Part shown: positions 9,171 through 18,411 of the stretch, piece after piece
Layout: every line of letters starts with the position of its first letter
Numbering within the stretch: the first letter of the stretch is position 1
Source: a virus
Direction: 5' to 3' (one strand)
IMG/VR virus record: IMGVR_UViG_3300025110_000177
Span: 1 to 20,014 of that record
Length of the DNA stretch: 20,014 nucleotides
The notes under the pieces: model-generated
What the model was told of the DNA's origin: nothing
Databases searched by the model: none
What the model saw: the letters and a program-made list of their open reading frames with translations, nothing else
Translations under genes and position numbers: made by a program

Positions 9171-12100
9171 ATGGCTGATCTTCAAATAAGTCAACTGCCT
9201 GCTTTAGCGGAGGCAGATTTAGCGGCTGGAGATGAATTGGCTGTCGTAGATGGCAGCGCATCGGAAACCAAACGAATTACAGCAAAAGCTTTAGTTGAAA
9301 AAGGTGTTGCTTTAATTGATGCTGGTAGCATTCCAGGCTCAGCACTTTCGACTTTAGGGGTAAATACGGTAGTAACGGCAAGTATTACTAATTTAAACGT
9401 CACAGCAGCAAAGATTGCAAACGCAACAATAACAGCGACTCAAATAGCGGATGCAACAATAACTGGAGCAAAATTAGTTGACGATACTGTTACTGCAACA
9501 CAGATAGCTGCTAATGCGATAGGTGCGTCTGAGCTAGCTGATGACGCTGTTGATAGTGCTGCTATAGCTGCAAACGCAGTAACAACTGTCAAAATTGCAG
9601 ATGCAAATGTTACTTATGCAAAGTTAAGTCTTAGTGATGGAGATATTGCAGGAGCAAAAATTGCAACAGGTGGGATTACAGCATTACAAATAGCAGCAAA
9701 TGCTGTTGGTGCTAGTGAGCTCGCAGACAATGCCGTAGATACAGCAGCCATAGCAAATTTAGCTGTTACGTCTGGAAAGTTAGCAGCTAATTCTATCACC
9801 GTAGATAAGATTACTGATGGTGTTATTACAGGTGCAAAACTAGTAACTGGAACAATTACAGCTACTCAAATAGCGGCAAATGCTGTTACTGCCTCTGAGT
9901 TGGCTAATGATGCTGTCGATACAAATGCAATTCTTGATGATGCTGTAACTGCTGCAAAACTTGCGGCTGGTGCTGTGGATACAACAGCGTTAGGCACAGC
10001 GGCTGTTACAGGAGCAAAAATTGCAAATACAACAATCACAGCAGCGAACATTGTAGCTGGCACGATTACATCTGCTGAACTTGCAGCCGATTCTGTAGGT
10101 GCTAGTGAAATAGCTGCTAACGCTGTTGGTGCTAGTGAACTTGCAGACGATGCAGTTGACACGAATGCAATAGCAAATAGTGCTGTTACAGGTGACAAAA
10201 TTGCAAATACAACTATTACTTATGCAAAGTTAAGTCTTAGTGATGGGGATATACCTGCTGCCAAGATTGTTGCTAATTCATTAACTGCTGGTCAGATAGC
10301 TGCAAATGCTATAGGAGCTAGTGAATTGGCTGATAATGCAGTTGATACTGCTGCTATTGCTGATGATGCAGTTACTGGAGCCAAAATTGCAGCAACAACT
10401 ATTACTGGAGCAAATATTGCAGCAACAACAATTGCAGCAGGAAATATTGTTGCAAATACTATTACTGCTTCAGAAATAGCTGCTAATGCAATTGGTTCAA
10501 GCGAATTGGCGGATAATGCTGTTGATACTGCTGCCATTGCAAACGCAGCAATAACTAACGATAAAATTGCAAATACAACTGTTGCTTATGCCAAATTAAA
10601 TTTATCGGATGGAGATATAGCAGGGGCAAAAATAACAAGTAATTCGATTACAGCTACTCAAATAGCTGCTGATGCAGTAGGGGCTAGTGAACTTGCAAAT
10701 AATGCTGTTGACACCAATGCTTTAGCAGATGATGCGGTTACTGGAGCAAAGATCGCAGCGGCAACAATTGAAGGAGCAAATATTGTTACTGGCACAATTA
10801 CTGCAACTCAATTAGCTGCTGATTCTGTAGGGGCAAGTGAAATAGCAGCAAATGCAGTTGGTGCTTCAGAACTAGCAGATGATGCTGTCGATACAGCAGC
10901 TATAGCGAATTTGGCTGTCACAGCAGCAAAGATAGCTAATACAACTATTACGGCAGCAAAATTAAATTTATCTGCTGGAGATATTGATGGAACAAAAATT
11001 GCAGCTAATTCACTTACAGCTAGTCAAATTGCTGCAAATGCAATAACAGCTAGTGAGTTAGCTGATGATGCAGTTGATACAGCCGCTATAGCTAACAACG
11101 CTGTCACAGCAGCAAAGATAGCCACTAATGCGGTTACTGCGACAGAACTTGCAGACAATGCCGTAGATACTGCTGCTATTGCAGATGGTGCGGTTACTGC
11201 TGTTAAAATTTCAGGCACATTAAATACTGCAACTATTGCTGATAGTGCGATAACAACAGCAAAAATTGCTGATGATGCAGTAACTAGTGCGAAGCTTGGA
11301 GCCAATGCTGTTGATGCTGCCGCTTTGGCTAATGACGCTGTAGATTCAACAGCGATTTTGGATGGAGCAGTATTAGAAGCAAAGATTGGAACAGGTGCAG
11401 TAACAAATGCAAAAATAGGAGCAAATGCTGTAACAGCAGCAAAGATTACTGACGGCACAATTACAGCGGCAAAATTAGCCACCGCAAATATCGACAGATC
11501 ATTAAATGTAGCTTCCGGAAATTTAGGAATAAATAATGTTATTTCTGCTGGAATTCGCTCAGGGATCACCTATAACGCTCAGGGCTTAATAACCTCTACA
11601 ACTGCACTGGTAGCAAGCGATTTGCCTGTTGCAACTGCTACTGCGGTTGGTGGTGTTTCTATCGTTAGTACAGGTGGGCTGACAGTAACAGGAGCGGGTG
11701 CATTATCTATTGCAACAACAACAACTGCAAGCACAGGAACAAAAGTCACTTTTAACAACTTTGGTCAGGTAACTAGTACTGCAACTCTTGCTGCTAGTGA
11801 CTTGCCTGTTGCGACTGCTAGTGCTGTTGGTGGAGTTTCTGTTCCTACAGGTGGTCCTCTTTCGGTCGATGGAAACGGTGCAATTACCGTTGCTAATTCA
11901 GGGGTAACAGCAGGTGTTGGTACAAAAGTAACAGTTGACGCAAAAGGTCGAGTAACCAATCTTGCAACTCTTGCAGACAGTGATCTTCCTAATCACAGTG
12001 CAGCTTTAATAACTTCTGGAAGTATTCCAACAGCAAGGATTGCTAATGATGCAATTACTGGAACAAAACTTGCAAATGCCTCAACAACTATATTTGGATC

Positions 12101-15100
12101 TGTCGCCCAGACAGGGTTCCCGACATCCGATTTCACAGGGCAGTTTTTCTTCGATTCTGTTTCTGAAGATTTATACATATATGATGGAAATGCCTATCAA
12201 CCAGTAACAACTTTAACTAAAGGTTCGCTGGTCTTTGGTGGTACTTTTAACGCATCAACAAGTAAAGTTGCAAGTGTAACAACCGCAGGTGCAGCAGCGG
12301 GTCTAACAGTTGGATCTAATGTTCCAACTCCGACAACTAGTACGGATGGTTTGTACTTAGTAGTTGAGACTGCTGGTACTCCAAGTGCGCCAGCCCCAGT
12401 AGTTTCTCTCGCACCACCAGATTATATTTTAGGTGTTACAAATACATCAGGAAGTTCATGGGAAGAAATTGATTTATCTCAAACAGTAGCAGGGCAGGTC
12501 GCAAGCAATATTACTTTTACACCATATGGGCAAATTCAAAGTACAAATGTACAGGATGCTCTTGAAGAGTTAGAAACAGAAAAGTTAGCAAAAGCTGGTG
12601 GTACTGTCACTGGTCAAGTGTTATTAGGTAATACTGCAACGCTTGTTTTTGAAGGTTCTAGTACAGACGCATACCAGACTACTTTAGGAGTTGTTAACCC
12701 AACTACAGCAGACAAAACAATACTTTTACCTAATACTTCTGGAACTTTAATAACAACTAATGATTCAGGGACTATTTCATCAGCAATGATTGCAGATGGA
12801 GCCATTCTTAATGCAGATATAAATGCCGATGCTGCAATTGCATTTACAAAATTAGCTGATTTAACTTCTGCTCAGATACTCGTTGGTAATGCTTCTAATG
12901 AGCCAACATCAGTAGCAGTAACAGGAGATATAGCGATAACTAATGCAGGTGTTACTTCTATTGCCGCTGGAGTCATTGTTGATGCTGATATATCTGGATC
13001 GGCTGCGATAACAGGTAGCAAGATTGCTACTGGAACGACAAGTGCAGTTGGTGTTCTTCAGTTAACAAACGCAACAGATAGTACAAGTGCTACTACGGCT
13101 GCTACTCCTGCTGCTGTTAAGACAGCCAAAGATGCTGCTGATGCTGCTGCTGTAACTGCTAATGCTGCTTTACCAAAAGCAGGCGGCACTTTAACCGACA
13201 ACTTAATTATCGATAATGCCAAAAGTGTCAGATTCTCTGAAGCTGATTCAAATGGCGCACATTATTTAGCACTAAAAGCCCCTGATTCTGTAACGGCTGA
13301 TATTACTTTTACCTTGCCTGATGGTGATGGCAGTTCTGGGCAAAGATTACAAACAGATGGATCTGGAAATTTAAGTTGGGGTACTGACAATGCAACAGAC
13401 CCCACCAAGTTGCCATTAGCAGGCGGCACAATGACTGGTGCTATTGCAATGGGTACAAGCAAGATCACTGGTCTTGGAGATCCAACAGCAGCGCAAGATG
13501 CAGCAACTAAAACTTATGTAGATGCAGCAAGTACAACAGGAAATGCAGCAACAGCAACAGCACTTGCAACAGCAAGAACAATAGGTGGAGTCAGCTTTGA
13601 TGGAACTGCAAATATAGATTTGCCAGGTGTTAACGCTGCTGGCAACCAAAACACTACAGGAAACGCAGCCACAGCAACAAAGTTTGCTTCTGCGGTCACG
13701 ATTGGTGGGGTTAGTTTTGATGGTTCAGCAAACATAACTCTGCCTGGTGTTAATGCTTCTGGTACTCAAGACACTTCAGGAACAGCAGCACTCGCAACCC
13801 AGTTCACAGTCACAGCAAACGACACGACAAATGAGACTGTTTATCCAGTTTTTGTAGATGCTGCAACAGGTTCTCAAGGTGCTGAAACAGATTCTGCTTT
13901 AACTTATAATCCTTCAACTGGAGCTTTAACTACAACAACATTTATTGGTGCGTTAACTGGAAATGTTTCTGGATCATCAGGTTCATGTACTGGAAACGCT
14001 GCTACTGCAACAGCTTTAGCGACTGCTAGAACGATTGGTGGGGTTAGCTTCGACGGTACAGCAGCAATAGATCTTCCTGGTGTAAACACTTCAGGAACGC
14101 AAGATACAAGTGGAACAGCAGCACTCGCAACACAATTTACAGTTACAGCGAATAATTCTACAAATGAAACTGTTTATCCTTTGTTCTCTGATGGAGCAAC
14201 AGGTAGCCAAGGTGCGGAAACAGATACTGGGTTTACTTATAACCCCTCAACTGGTGCTTTAACTTCTACTTCTTTTGTTGGTGCTTTAACTGGGAATGTC
14301 ACAGGTAACGCAAGTGGTTCATCAGGTTCTTGTACTGGTAATGCGGCGACAGCAACTGCATTAGCAACTGCAAGAGCCATTAACGGAGTTGATTTCGATG
14401 GTACTGGAGCCATAACAGTAACGGCTGCTGCTGGCACGTTGACTGGGACTGAATTAAAAAGCACTGTTGTTACTTCCAGCCTGACTTCAGTAGGAACTCT
14501 TGCGAGTTTGGCAGTTACAAATAACGCAACTATCGGCGGTAATGCAACGATCACTGGGGATTTGGTTGTAAATGGAACCACTACAACGGTTTCAAGCACC
14601 ACCGTTGAGGTAGCTGACAAAAATATAGAAATTGGAAAAGTATCGAGTCCTAGTGATACAACCGCAGATGGAGGAGGTTTAACTCTTAAAGGTACAACAG
14701 ATAAGACATGGAACTGGGTTAATTCAACAGATGCTTGGACATCTTCAGAACATATTCAAGTTGCTAGTGGTAAGACATTTATTGGAGATGGTTCAACGTT
14801 AACTGCATTAAACGCATCAAACATTGCCTCTGGGACTATTGCAGCAGCTAGGGTTCCAACTCTTAATCAAAACACAACGGGATCAGCAGCAACATTAACA
14901 ACAGCAAGAACTATTAACGGGATAAGCTTTGACGGTTCTGCGGATATAACGGTTACTGCTGCTGCTGGAACACTTACAGGAACAGAATTAAAAAGCACAG
15001 TTGTTACATCAAGCTTGACTTCTGTTGGAACGTTAACTGGTTTAACAAGCACTGGAAATATTGATATTGATAGTGATTCAACAAAATTAAGGTTAGGGGC

Positions 15101-15839
15101 AGATCAAGACGCAGAACTATATCACACTGGAGCGCATGGATACTTAGTAAACAGTACAGGTAATTTTAATTTAAGAACTGGCGGCACTTTATGGATAGAT
15201 AATGCAGCAGGTAACGAAACATACATAAAAGCTATTGAAAACGGAGCCGTAGAGTTATTTCACAATAATATTAAAACTTTTGCAACTGCCAGTCATGGCA
15301 TAGAAGTTTTAGGCCCTGAAGGAGGCACTGCAAATGTTTATATGTATGCTGACGAAGGAGATGATAATGCAGATAAATGGGGATTAGAAGTAGATACAAG
15401 CGGTAATTTTAATATACGCAACTACTCAACAGGGTCTTGGGTTGACGGTTTAACTTTAGACGGCTCAAATAACGCCACGTTTGCTGGAACGGTATCAGAC
15501 AGCAAAGGCAACCTGCGTTCTATACCTCAAAAAACTGGTTCAACAGGTACTGCTACTTATGAATTAGTTGCTGCTGATGCTGGCAAACATGTTTATCATG
15601 CGTCAACAGGAAGCATAACTGTACCACCAACGTCAGGAATCTTTAGTGCTGGAGATGCCATAACAATATTAAATGGACACGCCTCTGGTACGTTTCAAAT
15701 CCTTCAAGGTACTGGTGTTACTATTTGGAACTCTGGCGATGGAACTTCAGGTACACGCACTGTAGGTGTAAAAGGAATGTGTACATTACTTTGTGTTGGG
15801 AGTAATGGGTACTACATTTCAGGTGCAGGGTTGACATAA
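9171..15839 (+). CDS. Giant modular tail fibre protein with ten-residue repeat shaft
   Basis: A 2222-residue, Ala/Thr-rich, almost Cys-free protein. Residues 1-70 (MADLQISQLPALAEADLAAG start) form a likely tail-attachment head. Residues 78-774 are 69 tandem ten-residue units of the type TAxxIAxxAV. From about 783 come three copies of a G-x-V/I-T-S-T-x-L-x-x-SDLP module, then a segment near 974-1013 (FFFDSVSEDLYIYDG). AGGT-type fibre repeats follow near 1140, 1334 and 1414, with a phage tail fibre repeat (GVLQLTNATDSTS) near 1293. Next are repeated TGNAATATALATAR / IGGVSFDG modules (about 1457-1745) and two LTGTELKSTVVTSSLTSVG copies (about 1755 and 1933). Near 1790-1865 lies a segment with GDLVVNGTTTTV and DKNIEIG, then an AELYHTGAHGYLV region. 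The protein ends in a beta-rich tip (2130-2222). No S74 chaperone ending is seen. Probably a trimeric fibre; host binding is inferred. Confidence 0.85.
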   Translation: MADLQISQLPALAEADLAAGDELAVVDGSASETKRITAKALVEKGVALIDAGSIPGSALSTLGVNTVVTASITNLNVTAAKIANATITATQIADATITGAKLVDDTVTATQIAANAIGASELADDAVDSAAIAANAVTTVKIADANVTYAKLSLSDGDIAGAKIATGGITALQIAANAVGASELADNAVDTAAIANLAVTSGKLAANSITVDKITDGVITGAKLVTGTITATQIAANAVTASELANDAVDTNAILDDAVTAAKLAAGAVDTTALGTAAVTGAKIANTTITAANIVAGTITSAELAADSVGASEIAANAVGASELADDAVDTNAIANSAVTGDKIANTTITYAKLSLSDGDIPAAKIVANSLTAGQIAANAIGASELADNAVDTAAIADDAVTGAKIAATTITGANIAATTIAAGNIVANTITASEIAANAIGSSELADNAVDTAAIANAAITNDKIANTTVAYAKLNLSDGDIAGAKITSNSITATQIAADAVGASELANNAVDTNALADDAVTGAKIAAATIEGANIVTGTITATQLAADSVGASEIAANAVGASELADDAVDTAAIANLAVTAAKIANTTITAAKLNLSAGDIDGTKIAANSLTASQIAANAITASELADDAVDTAAIANNAVTAAKIATNAVTATELADNAVDTAAIADGAVTAVKISGTLNTATIADSAITTAKIADDAVTSAKLGANAVDAAALANDAVDSTAILDGAVLEAKIGTGAVTNAKIGANAVTAAKITDGTITAAKLATANIDRSLNVASGNLGINNVISAGIRSGITYNAQGLITSTTALVASDLPVATATAVGGVSIVSTGGLTVTGAGALSIATTTTASTGTKVTFNNFGQVTSTATLAASDLPVATASAVGGVSVPTGGPLSVDGNGAITVANSGVTAGVGTKVTVDAKGRVTNLATLADSDLPNHSAALITSGSIPTARIANDAITGTKLANASTTIFGSVAQTGFPTSDFTGQFFFDSVSEDLYIYDGNAYQPVTTLTKGSLVFGGTFNASTSKVASVTTAGAAAGLTVGSNVPTPTTSTDGLYLVVETAGTPSAPAPVVSLAPPDYILGVTNTSGSSWEEIDLSQTVAGQVASNITFTPYGQIQSTNVQDALEELETEKLAKAGGTVTGQVLLGNTATLVFEGSSTDAYQTTLGVVNPTTADKTILLPNTSGTLITTNDSGTISSAMIADGAILNADINADAAIAFTKLADLTSAQILVGNASNEPTSVAVTGDIAITNAGVTSIAAGVIVDADISGSAAITGSKIATGTTSAVGVLQLTNATDSTSATTAATPAAVKTAKDAADAAAVTANAALPKAGGTLTDNLIIDNAKSVRFSEADSNGAHYLALKAPDSVTADITFTLPDGDGSSGQRLQTDGSGNLSWGTDNATDPTKLPLAGGTMTGAIAMGTSKITGLGDPTAAQDAATKTYVDAASTTGNAATATALATARTIGGVSFDGTANIDLPGVNAAGNQNTTGNAATATKFASAVTIGGVSFDGSANITLPGVNASGTQDTSGTAALATQFTVTANDTTNETVYPVFVDAATGSQGAETDSALTYNPSTGALTTTTFIGALTGNVSGSSGSCTGNAATATALATARTIGGVSFDGTAAIDLPGVNTSGTQDTSGTAALATQFTVTANNSTNETVYPLFSDGATGSQGAETDTGFTYNPSTGALTSTSFVGALTGNVTGNASGSSGSCTGNAATATALATARAINGVDFDGTGAITVTAAAGTLTGTELKSTVVTSSLTSVGTLASLAVTNNATIGGNATITGDLVVNGTTTTVSSTTVEVADKNIEIGKVSSPSDTTADGGGLTLKGTTDKTWNWVNSTDAWTSSEHIQVASGKTFIGDGSTLTALNASNIASGTIAAARVPTLNQNTTGSAATLTTARTINGISFDGSADITVTAAAGTLTGTELKSTVVTSSLTSVGTLTGLTSTGNIDIDSDSTKLRLGADQDAELYHTGAHGYLVNSTGNFNLRTGGTLWIDNAAGNETYIKAIENGAVELFHNNIKTFATASHGIEVLGPEGGTANVYMYADEGDDNADKWGLEVDTSGNFNIRNYSTGSWVDGLTLDGSNNATFAGTVSDSKGNLRSIPQKTGSTGTATYELVAADAGKHVYHASTGSITVPPTSGIFSAGDAITILNGHASGTFQILQGTGVTIWNSGDGTSGTRTVGVKGMCTLLCVGSNGYYISGAGLT
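9610..9640 (+). repeat. 31-base exact direct repeat, copy 1
   Basis: Bases 9610-9640 are identical to 10216-10246, 606 bases downstream. They code for the TYAKLSLSDG interruption of the fibre shaft. Flanking bases differ on both sides. This is the longest exact DNA repeat I noticed in the fibre gene. Confidence 0.9.
10216..10246 (+). repeat. 31-base exact direct repeat, copy 2
   Basis: Identical to 9610-9640. The spacing (606 bases, 202 codons) keeps the reading frame, so recombination between the copies would delete or duplicate twenty ten-residue units without a frameshift. Confidence 0.9.
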
Positions 15840-15879: not shown

Positions 15880-18411
15880 ATGAGTCCTATTCAACAAATG
15901 CTTTTAGGTGGTGGTGCAGTTGCTACTAAAAAATATATTGAAGACGCTTTTTTGACGTATGTTTATGCAAATAATAATGGTACACAAACTACAAATTTTG
16001 ATCTAACTGAAAGCGGTGGATTGTTATGGATAAAAAATAGGTCTGAGAGTAAAAATCATGTACTCAATGACACTGTTAGAGGAGCAACAAAAATGCTCAT
16101 GACTAATGAAGATAAGGAAGAAGAAGTTTCTAGTGGAAGAATATCTGGTATTACATCTACTGGTTTTACTCTTGGTTCTGATAATGAGGTTAGAGATAGT
16201 AGCAGTAAATATGTGGCTTGGAATTTTGCAATAAAACCAGGCTTTTTCACCTGCCTGACCTACAGTGGAAATGATACTAATCGCCTAATTGCACATGACC
16301 TCGGAAGCGTTCCTGGGCTAATTATAGTTAAAAGAAGGGATGACGGTGGACATGATTGGAGGGTTTTATATCGAGGTAGTGATGGTATCGATACACTGAG
16401 GCTCAACAGAAGTAATACACCAATTCAATCATCTGCTTCATGGAACTCAACTTTACCTACAGCTACTCATTTTAGTTTAGGTAGTCACAGCGACGTTAAT
16501 GATGTTAGTGGTACTTATGTAGCCTATTTATTCGCAGGGGGAGCGTCCGCAGCCGCGACTGCAAAGAGTGTTGATTTTGATGGTAATGATTATTTAAGTC
16601 TTGCAAGTAGTGCAGATCTTGCTCCTGGTACTGGTAATTTCACATGGGAAGCATGGATAAAGCCCGATGACTGGGATCAAACTTATATGCCTTTGTTTGT
16701 TAATGGTAGTGCTGGAGGATTATGGATAGGTAAATTAAGTAGTAATTTTGCTGTGCATGCTTATAACGGTAGTACTCAGTTAACTTATGGAACATTCCCT
16801 TCTATAGGAACATGGACTCATGTAGCAGTTACAAGGTCAGGAACAACTTTAAAATTGTTTTATAACGGTTTAGAGGTTAAAAGTGTAACAAGTTCTCAAG
16901 ATTTTATAGCAGCCACAACATACATAGGAAACGATACAAGTACTAACTATTTTGATGGGAGGATTTCTAATGTTCGATTCGTAAAAGGAACAGCAGTTTA
17001 TACCTCAACATTCATACCACCAACTGAGCCATTAACAAACATAACTAATACCAAGCTTTTATGTTGCAATGACTCATCTAATACAGGTTCAACTGTAACT
17101 CCTGGAACGATTACCGCTCATGGAGATCTAGCACCAAGCAAAGATAGTCCCTTCGATGACACCGCTGGTTTTGTCTTTGGAGAGAACGAAGACCAAGGAG
17201 TAATCAAGTGCGGTACTTATTTTGGAAATAGCAGTACCGATGGTCCTGAGGTTTATCTAGGTTGGGAGCCGCAATGGGTAATGATAAAAAATTTGGACAC
17301 TGCAAAACCTTGGTGTATACATGACATGATGAGAGGGTTTTGGAATAATGGCACTTCTGACGATATAAGCAGTTTCGCTAATTTACAAAATGCCGACTTA
17401 GCTTTTGGAGTAGGAGAATTTACTTCCACAGGATTTAAACTAAGAACAACTGATAGTAATTGGAATAACGATGGTGATGAATACATCTATATTTGCATTA
17501 GACGGCCAGATGGATACGTTAGTAAGCTTCCCGAAGTTGGTACGGATATATTTAATGTTATTGCTGGAACGTCTGGAGATCCTACATTTAAAACTCAATT
17601 TGTAACTGATTTCATATCAGCAAGACCAGACGATTCAGCTTCTTCTTGGTGGACTTACTTCAGGCCTACAGGTACTAATTATCTAGCTTTTAACTCCAGT
17701 AGTGGCTCAGGTGCTGGTGGTGCTAGCAAAAGATTAGACTTTATGAACGGTTTTACTACAGGTGGTAGTACAAATGATACGGCTTGGGGTTGGAAACGCT
17801 ACGCTGGGATGGATTTGGTTTGTTATTCAGGAAATTCAAATAATAGAGATATAAGGCATTCAATGGGAATTGCCCCGACGATGGTCTGGTTGAAAAATAC
17901 AACAGGTAGTGAAGGGTGGGTCGTTGGTTCTTCTGAGTTAAGTAGTTGGGCTGAATATTTAACTTTAAATAATAATGATGGAGAATCTACAAATGCTGGA
18001 TTATTTAATTCAAAAGCTCCAACTGCTACTCATTTTAGTTTAGGAACTCAAAACAGATCTAATGAGACTAATCAAGATTATATAGCCATACTCTTCGCCA
18101 GCGTTTCAGGAATTTCATCCGTGGGAAGCTACACAGGAAATGGACAAACTGGTAGTTCAGGAACCTTTGTTACAACAGGTTTTCAACCAAGACTTGTATG
18201 GGTAAAAAGATTTGATGGTCATGGTCAAGATTGGCCTATTTATGATTCACATAGAGGTTTTGATGCAGATACATTGTACTTAAATGAAAATAATGCTGCT
18301 GATGCTGTTTCAACTGCGGTGGAAGTTTCTTCTACTGGCTTTAGGTTGATAACTAACAATGCTAATACTAATAACAATACAGACGAATATATTTACTACG
18401 CCCATGCTTAG
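15880..18411 (+). CDS. Putative receptor-binding tail protein: six repeated domains plus a LamG lectin-like domain
   Basis: An 843-residue protein following the giant fibre. After an N-terminal MSPIQQMLLGGGAVATKKYI segment, about 95-residue units recur: roughly residues 27-117, 120-220, 435-545, 570-641, 644-741 and 746-843. Each has a Y-x-G-N opening, a VWxK strand (LLWIKN, LIIVKR, WVMIKN, MVWLKN, LVWVKR), a W or H-N rich loop, a TGF or ATHFSLG strand, and a closing YVAW/YIYI/YIAI strand. This resembles the uncharacterised DUF7483-type domain of phage tail proteins. Between copies 2 and 3, residues about 229-400 form a LamG/concanavalin A-like domain (VDFDGNDYLSLASS, FTWEAWIKPDDW, WTHVAVTRSGTTLKLFYNG, YFDGRISNVRFVKGTAVY), a fold that often binds glycans. 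No signal peptide or membrane segment. GGAG precedes the ATG. Surface or glycan binding is inferred from domain type and position. Confidence 0.8.
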   Translation: MSPIQQMLLGGGAVATKKYIEDAFLTYVYANNNGTQTTNFDLTESGGLLWIKNRSESKNHVLNDTVRGATKMLMTNEDKEEEVSSGRISGITSTGFTLGSDNEVRDSSSKYVAWNFAIKPGFFTCLTYSGNDTNRLIAHDLGSVPGLIIVKRRDDGGHDWRVLYRGSDGIDTLRLNRSNTPIQSSASWNSTLPTATHFSLGSHSDVNDVSGTYVAYLFAGGASAAATAKSVDFDGNDYLSLASSADLAPGTGNFTWEAWIKPDDWDQTYMPLFVNGSAGGLWIGKLSSNFAVHAYNGSTQLTYGTFPSIGTWTHVAVTRSGTTLKLFYNGLEVKSVTSSQDFIAATTYIGNDTSTNYFDGRISNVRFVKGTAVYTSTFIPPTEPLTNITNTKLLCCNDSSNTGSTVTPGTITAHGDLAPSKDSPFDDTAGFVFGENEDQGVIKCGTYFGNSSTDGPEVYLGWEPQWVMIKNLDTAKPWCIHDMMRGFWNNGTSDDISSFANLQNADLAFGVGEFTSTGFKLRTTDSNWNNDGDEYIYICIRRPDGYVSKLPEVGTDIFNVIAGTSGDPTFKTQFVTDFISARPDDSASSWWTYFRPTGTNYLAFNSSSGSGAGGASKRLDFMNGFTTGGSTNDTAWGWKRYAGMDLVCYSGNSNNRDIRHSMGIAPTMVWLKNTTGSEGWVVGSSELSSWAEYLTLNNNDGESTNAGLFNSKAPTATHFSLGTQNRSNETNQDYIAILFASVSGISSVGSYTGNGQTGSSGTFVTTGFQPRLVWVKRFDGHGQDWPIYDSHRGFDADTLYLNENNAADAVSTAVEVSSTGFRLITNNANTNNNTDEYIYYAHA

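Follow-up and report, generated by a model that had tools for sequence, protein, structure and literature searches.

Residues 78–774 of a very large protein encoded in IMG/VR record IMGVR_UViG_3300025110_000177 are the long, spacer-like shaft of the tail fibre of an uncultured marine phage. This shaft is ordered and modular, and its stand-out features are a six-unit word with a fixed pattern at the fourth position of its ten-residue units and a nearly fixed first copy of a 12-residue unit, hereafter the GDI unit. As a whole, we consider it reasonably probable that the shaft is a trimeric spacer leading from a conserved anchor to a swappable tip, made of ten-residue units arranged in six-unit words, in which the GDI units are module starts and most likely markers of register rather than flexible hinges. 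The window, that is the whole stretch of DNA analysed (20,014 nucleotides, positions 1 to 20,014 of the record), is a 20-kb virus contig whose tail gene module is of siphovirus type.

The fibre gene and its architecture

The tail-fibre gene (9171..15839, plus strand) encodes 2222 amino acids and was delineated from its open reading frame, PHROG profiles and tail-module neighbours. Profile matches identify genes for a tape measure, a J-like tail protein and minor and major tail proteins upstream of it, and the same module contains a weak NlpC/P60 match. The protein matches the PHROG tail-fibre families phrog_892, 6722 and 28766 and the unnamed 13518 with E-values down to 3e-104, the significant matches including those to phrog_892 (6.5e-79) and phrog_6722 (1.9e-51). 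Both the profile matches and the place of the gene in the tail module assign it to the tail fibres. Downstream of the fibre, positions 15880–18411 encode another adhesin-like protein, which has DUF7483 and laminin-G-like domains and relatives in Synechococcus, Pelagibacter and Roseobacter phages.

The N-terminal domain (aa 1–62; 9171..9356, plus strand), a probable anchor delimited by conservation and comparison with relatives, has a mean conservation of 0.95 (n = 18 fibres). It is carried by 96 distinct fibres from viral contigs and had no match among 50,697 records of cultured phages; the fibre family with this domain is widespread in viral contigs, with no cultured member found. The shaft is followed by a conserved region (aa 775–1200; 11493..12770, plus strand) that shares 61–87% identity with 17 relatives over aa 775–960 and 70–97% over aa 961–1200. 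Comparison with 17 relatives also delimits a variable distal part (aa 1451–2222; 13521..15836, plus strand), the last 272 residues of which have a partial, weak match (31–39%) in only three of the 17, several relatives ending at the contig end. Within this distal part, window positions 13698–14299 hold a 333-bp imperfect tandem repeat of 1.8 copies that encodes a ARTIGGVSFDGTANIDLPGVN-type segment. Judged from these sequence comparisons, a conserved N-terminal domain and shaft with a variable tip would correspond to the common fibre layout, in which an anchor and a spacer precede an exchangeable receptor-binding tip.

The ten-residue array and its exceptional units

Autocorrelation and phase tracking place the shaft at 9402..11492 (plus strand), with 69 units of consensus T-A-A-K/Q/E/A-I/L-A-D/N-N/G/D-A/T-V/I, a pattern that can also be written T-A-A-[KQEAN]-[IL]-A-[DN]-[NGD]-[AT]-[VI]. 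Over aa 78–774, autocorrelation peaks at lags 10, 20, 30 and 40. The lag-10 peak, which an earlier sequence-only reading of this DNA had put forward as a check of the period, is present with an identity of 0.346 (z = 17 against composition shuffles) and is absent from the other parts of the fibre protein. That reading had the boundaries and the number of units right, aa 78–774 mapping exactly to 9402–11492. The array itself goes back one unit or more beyond that boundary, to aa 68. Phase tracking resolved the 69 units into 64 of ten residues, four of 12 and one of nine, which gives 697 residues. The period had been called strict, wrongly because of the nine-residue unit TAVKISGTL (aa 676–684; 11196..11222, plus strand) near the C-terminal end of the shaft, which had been overlooked; found by phase tracking and comparison with relatives, it is kept in the latter as TAAKLSGTL or TSAKLSGAL.

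The 12-residue units start at aa 148, 350, 472 and 594, so that the spacings of 202, 122 and 122 residues first reported for them are correct. They are TYAKLSLSDGDI at aa 148–159 (9612..9647), recognised by autocorrelation, phase tracking and comparison with relatives, and, by phase tracking, TYAKLSLSDGDI at aa 350–361 (10218..10253), AYAKLNLSDGDI at aa 472–483 (10584..10619) and TAAKLNLSAGDI at aa 594–605 (10950..10985), all on the plus strand. Each does add two residues, as had been noted, but the added part is not SDGDI, which aligns with ADNAV; the insert is [N/S]-[L/I] after K-L. With [NS]-[LI] taken as the insert, T-Y-A-K-L-[NS]-L-S-D-G-D-I aligns with T-A-A-K-I-A-D-N-A-V, an alignment that is also supported by TVDKITDGVI (aa 210), which occupies the equivalent position and has no insert. 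Each GDI unit is of the K type and is lengthened by an inserted dipeptide, S153-L154 (9627–9632) in the first one.

When sequences were set side by side, the anchor/shaft junction ALIDAGSIPGSALS (9309..9350, plus strand) was found to be GDI-unit-like. Between the N-terminal domain and the shaft the window has ALIDAGSIPGSAL and the relatives have ALIDDGDIPAAKV, and both resemble the GDI unit plus the residues after it, KLNLSDGDIPGAKI; the likeness can be followed between the latter and LIDDGDIPAAKV of the relatives. The GDI unit may repeat the shaft-start motif of this junction.

Sixty-residue words

Representing each unit by its fourth residue, with a slash before every 12-residue unit, the shaft reads S KQKQEAK /KKQEAK KKQEAK AKNEEEAK /KKQEAK NNEEAK /KKQEAK NQEEAK /KKQEAK EA... 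Against shuffled unit order, the identity between units has peaks at a lag of 6 units (z 8.9) and of 12 units (z 6.2). This 60-residue super-repeat had been overlooked in the sequence-only reading. The six-unit word is K-K-Q-E-A-K, and the 122-residue block is therefore 2 × 60 + 2. In 18 fibres that share this architecture, conservation at position 4 reaches 96%, more than at any other site of the unit, though the residue differs between units. The order N/Q/S-E-A-K of these residues recurs in Planctomycetota proteins and in a second family of phage fibres. A super-repeat of 40 residues was rejected for the window fibre family, for which the data give 60; the 40-residue one was found in the group of phage fibres that includes L031.

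The position-4 residues might form a pairing code that fixes the register among three near-identical chains, with the GDI units as start marks, so that a 69-unit fibre would assemble in one register only. We regard this as a speculative and rather improbable extension of the proposal.

Relatives and the origin of the modules

A scan of viral contigs yielded at least 79 loci with relatives of the fibre, and pooling them with a DNA-pattern scan for the GDI unit gave 116 distinct GDI fibre genes. Interior units in the 79 relatives comprise 3344 of ten residues, 164 of twelve and 90 of nine; other lengths are rare, an exception being a 13-residue stretch at the anchor/shaft junction. With only these three lengths common, and the shaft architecture the same in 18 fibres diverged to about 73% identity, the earlier claim that the shaft is not random low-complexity sequence is upheld. 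Wherever the start of a GDI fibre is intact, an N-terminal domain of the kind seen in the window fibre is present, with slight variation.

The start was recognised in 96 fibres, of which 83 have their first GDI unit at aa 148/149, 12 at 142 or 153 and one later. Each GDI unit after the first begins a module, of 122, 202 or 82 residues. A single GDI unit is present in 58 of the 96, and two, three, four or six in the rest. GDI-to-GDI spacings are 122 (60 cases), 202 (17), 82 (10) and 116 (9), with 182, 142 and 121 found once each; a fibre with the spacing of 116 that was inspected (L052) contains a non-repeat insert. The clean spacings all equal an even number of units (8, 12, 14, 18 or 20) plus two residues, and this evenness may follow from the six-unit words.

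From the position-4 code and phase tracking, the window shaft contains a module of 202 residues (20 units plus two; 9612..10217) and one of 122 residues (two six-unit words plus two; 10218..10583) with the code /KKQEAK NNEEAK; module comparison identifies a further one of 122 residues (10584..10949) that is 71% identical to the preceding one, all three on the plus strand. Across relatives, the modules starting at aa 350 and 472 share 73% identity within a fibre, compared with 83% and 88% between each of them and its counterpart in other viruses. Where residues are identical between modules, the third bases agree at a rate of only 0.47, a value near saturation. For 113 of the 115 modules of multi-GDI fibres the nearest relative lies in the fibre of another virus, and in four-GDI fibres the mean identity is highest for modules of the same number. 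Recent tandem duplication was rejected as the source of the modules, since third bases are near saturation and the nearest relatives are in other fibres. These comparisons indicate that the modules arose long ago, each with its own kept sequence. Shaft length differs by whole modules, the unit-by-unit pattern being fixed. The even spacing of 122 residues is the inherited length of old modules and therefore needs no mechanical reason. The spacing that had suggested hinges has this simpler origin, and regular spacing by itself is no argument for a mechanical function.

This modular history raises the question of whether GDI units beyond the first copy have a role of their own, or were carried along in module duplications that would have lengthened the fibre. 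Module sizes and copy numbers do vary (one, two, three, four or six GDI units), and across the 18 fibres the GDI units, with a conservation of 0.91, are no more conserved than E units (0.93) or N units (0.92). Against such passive carriage, all four copies are exactly 12 residues long in the 18 same-architecture fibres, none having gone back to ten, despite the near-saturated third bases between modules. We therefore keep it as a possible, though minority, explanation.

Predicted fold of the shaft

An AlphaFold2 monomer of aa 300–600 (17 relatives) had a pLDDT of 36 and no usable information, and that of aa 1–239 (28 relatives) reached a low-confidence 57. In this pLDDT-57 monomer most units have a predicted three-residue helix at positions 2–4, which the GDI unit and its successor lack. 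The pLDDT has no dip at the GDI unit, the ten-residue blocks from aa 141 scoring 58, 62, 56 and 65. Foldseek searches of the shaft models returned no match in the PDB and, in a viral library, other fibres with ten-residue repeats that superposed poorly. Searching the PDB by sequence gave only two entries: 8i4m, matched best in the C-terminal part rather than in the array, and 9eg4, where the match to orf16 covers a few units (E 0.005). The related stretches in the sequences of both are short. The sequence-only reading knew of no structure for this exact repeat, which is correct insofar as the sequence searches turned up no solved structure with such an array.

The missing helical turn at the GDI unit and its neighbour is what, in a low-confidence model, would agree with the earlier proposal that GDI units are mechanical hinges or kinks bending a stiff rod at set intervals. 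Hinged long tail fibres, such as those of T4, are also known. However, GDI spacing tracks old modules, in 58 of 96 relatives the only GDI unit lies near the anchor, and model confidence does not drop at the GDI unit. An exact two-residue insert that keeps strand alternation would moreover be unusual for a hinge, and we find this explanation unlikely. A change of register at these units, the other effect suggested in the sequence-only reading, is possible.

Many trimeric viral shafts are of the triple beta-helix or triple beta-spiral kind. An interlocked fold of this sort has that precedent in its favour here, together with V/I at position 10 and A/T at position 9, which favour extended structure. 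The first half of the unit points elsewhere: T, D or G at position 1, followed by A-A-K and I/L, resembles a helix N-cap and one turn, and AlphaFold2 places its helical turn, weakly, at the same place. From the sequence, T/D/G at position 1 would fit a helix cap. We see the interlocked beta fold as a plausible but less favoured option.

Hydrophobic residues every five positions raise another candidate, a single-chain, right-handed pentapeptide-repeat (quadrilateral beta) solenoid with two pentapeptides per unit. A related cyanophage array matches Pentapeptide_4 with E 7e-6, below the cut-off (26 vs 38 bits), and weak profile matches were obtained to 5dra, 4yfo and related chains, which we take to be designed pentapeptide solenoids. 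The window shaft itself, however, matches no pentapeptide model. The fold calls for a small residue two positions before the central hydrophobic one; A, S or T stands there before I/L5, but N, G or D before V/I10, where a small buried residue is needed. Units of nine and 12 residues would break the fold, and the AlphaFold2 models contain no solenoid. A pentapeptide solenoid is accordingly the candidate to which we give the least credence.

In the trimeric spacer that we favour, three chains would wind together in the shaft, and each unit would begin with a short N-capped helix of one turn and continue with a turn or an extended link, as in the helix-plus-turn shafts of R-type pyocin and phi29 head fibres. 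If the rise per unit is about 10 Å, the spacer would measure some 65–70 nm (about 67 nm for 69 units). The GDI units would re-create the anchor/shaft junction and serve as module starts, and as register marks they would stop near-identical repeat chains from slipping by ten residues. GDI-free ten-residue arrays exist, some of them longer than the window shaft, and a register lock is therefore not required in general. The window fibre family, in which a six-unit word and not only the ten-residue unit is conserved, offers a testable case of how a long homotrimer of near-identical repeats finds its register and length.

Comparison with known systems

Ten-residue-unit shafts occur in some bacteria as well as in fibre and tail-tip proteins of diverse phages. 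Nevertheless, no structure found in the PDB contains such an array, and curated models fail to recognise the window shaft. Word searches of the literature, mostly without subscription papers, found no description of the repeat, and papers on Anabaena phage A-1(L), roseophage R4C and phage 7-7-1 had no bearing on it. By profile, the shaft and the domains after it are matched best by the marine tail-fibre families phrog_892, 28766, 6722 and 13518, the last without a listed function; these families come with no account of the unit, the super-repeat or the GDI units. The Pfam Decapeptide repeat region (PF25296) and the repeats of Legionella IcmE/DotG have a ten-residue period with the same order of cap, hydrophobic and polar positions. 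The N-terminal profile matched IcmE with E 9e-8, aa 78–774 did not match PF25296 (cut-off 45 bits) even at E 1, and other phage arrays reach it only below the cut-off.

R-type pyocin fibres (Rod/Shaft) and the stem of the phi29 head fibre gp8.5 are trimeric and consist of turns and very short helices, the linkers being variable (PMC6116203, PMC6542822), the phi29 head fibre rising about 10 Å per turn (PMC6116203). The single helical turn per unit predicted in the AlphaFold2 monomer would recall these shafts. Pyocin repeats, unlike those of the window shaft, are irregular and invisible in sequence, and phi29 gp8.5 was rejected as a sequence relative, as it contains no such units. With neither a PDB fold match nor a sequence match to the pyocin and phi29 proteins, the likeness is therefore one of resemblance only.

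Long ten-residue arrays were also found in cyanopodophages, gp24 of Alteromonas phage V22, a J-type protein of a roseophage, gp94 of Arthrobacter phage Mimi and a Marinitoga virus, as well as in bacterial proteins of Planctomycetota and Cyclobacteriaceae; the GDI unit is absent from all these arrays examined. In V22 the array lies in gp24, which does not bind host cells, and not in the receptor-binding gp26. Mimi gp94 (L111), a minor tail protein, has about 4270 residues and more than 100 ten-residue units. A second fibre type (L030, L031, L032, L034 and L044) has, where fully covered, more than 100 ten-residue units in strict phase and without GDI units; its word is N-E-A-K, four units long, and at aa 872 it carries a single insert of five residues (VGGTG). 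Proteins encoded in bacterial contigs, of Planctomycetota among others (L081–L086), have up to about 70 ten-residue units, several of them with the S-E-A-K order and a similar C-terminal domain.

The Planctomycetota surface proteins with S-E-A-K arrays share the ten-residue unit and the E-A-K order with the window fibre; they differ in lacking GDI units and in being encoded by bacterial genes. Their loci were found with a pattern holding an E unit followed by a D-starting unit, and some bias in the E-A-K order is therefore to be expected. With a tracking profile that ignored positions 1–4, the order exceeds chance by far in the window, in Planctomycetota and in the phages of the L031 group; this is not so in V22, DSS3_VP1 and the cyanopodophages.

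The cyanopodophage fibres (NATL2A-133, P-SSP2, P-GSP1 and gp28 of P-SCSP1u, PDB 8i4m) carry arrays of the same ten-residue unit, and the C-terminal region of the P-SCSP1u protein is partly similar to the window fibre. P-SCSP1u gp28 is a trimer, the distal fibre of which is not resolved in 8i4m (PMC10575957). These fibres differ from the window fibre in having another N-terminal domain, no GDI units and another order of unit types.
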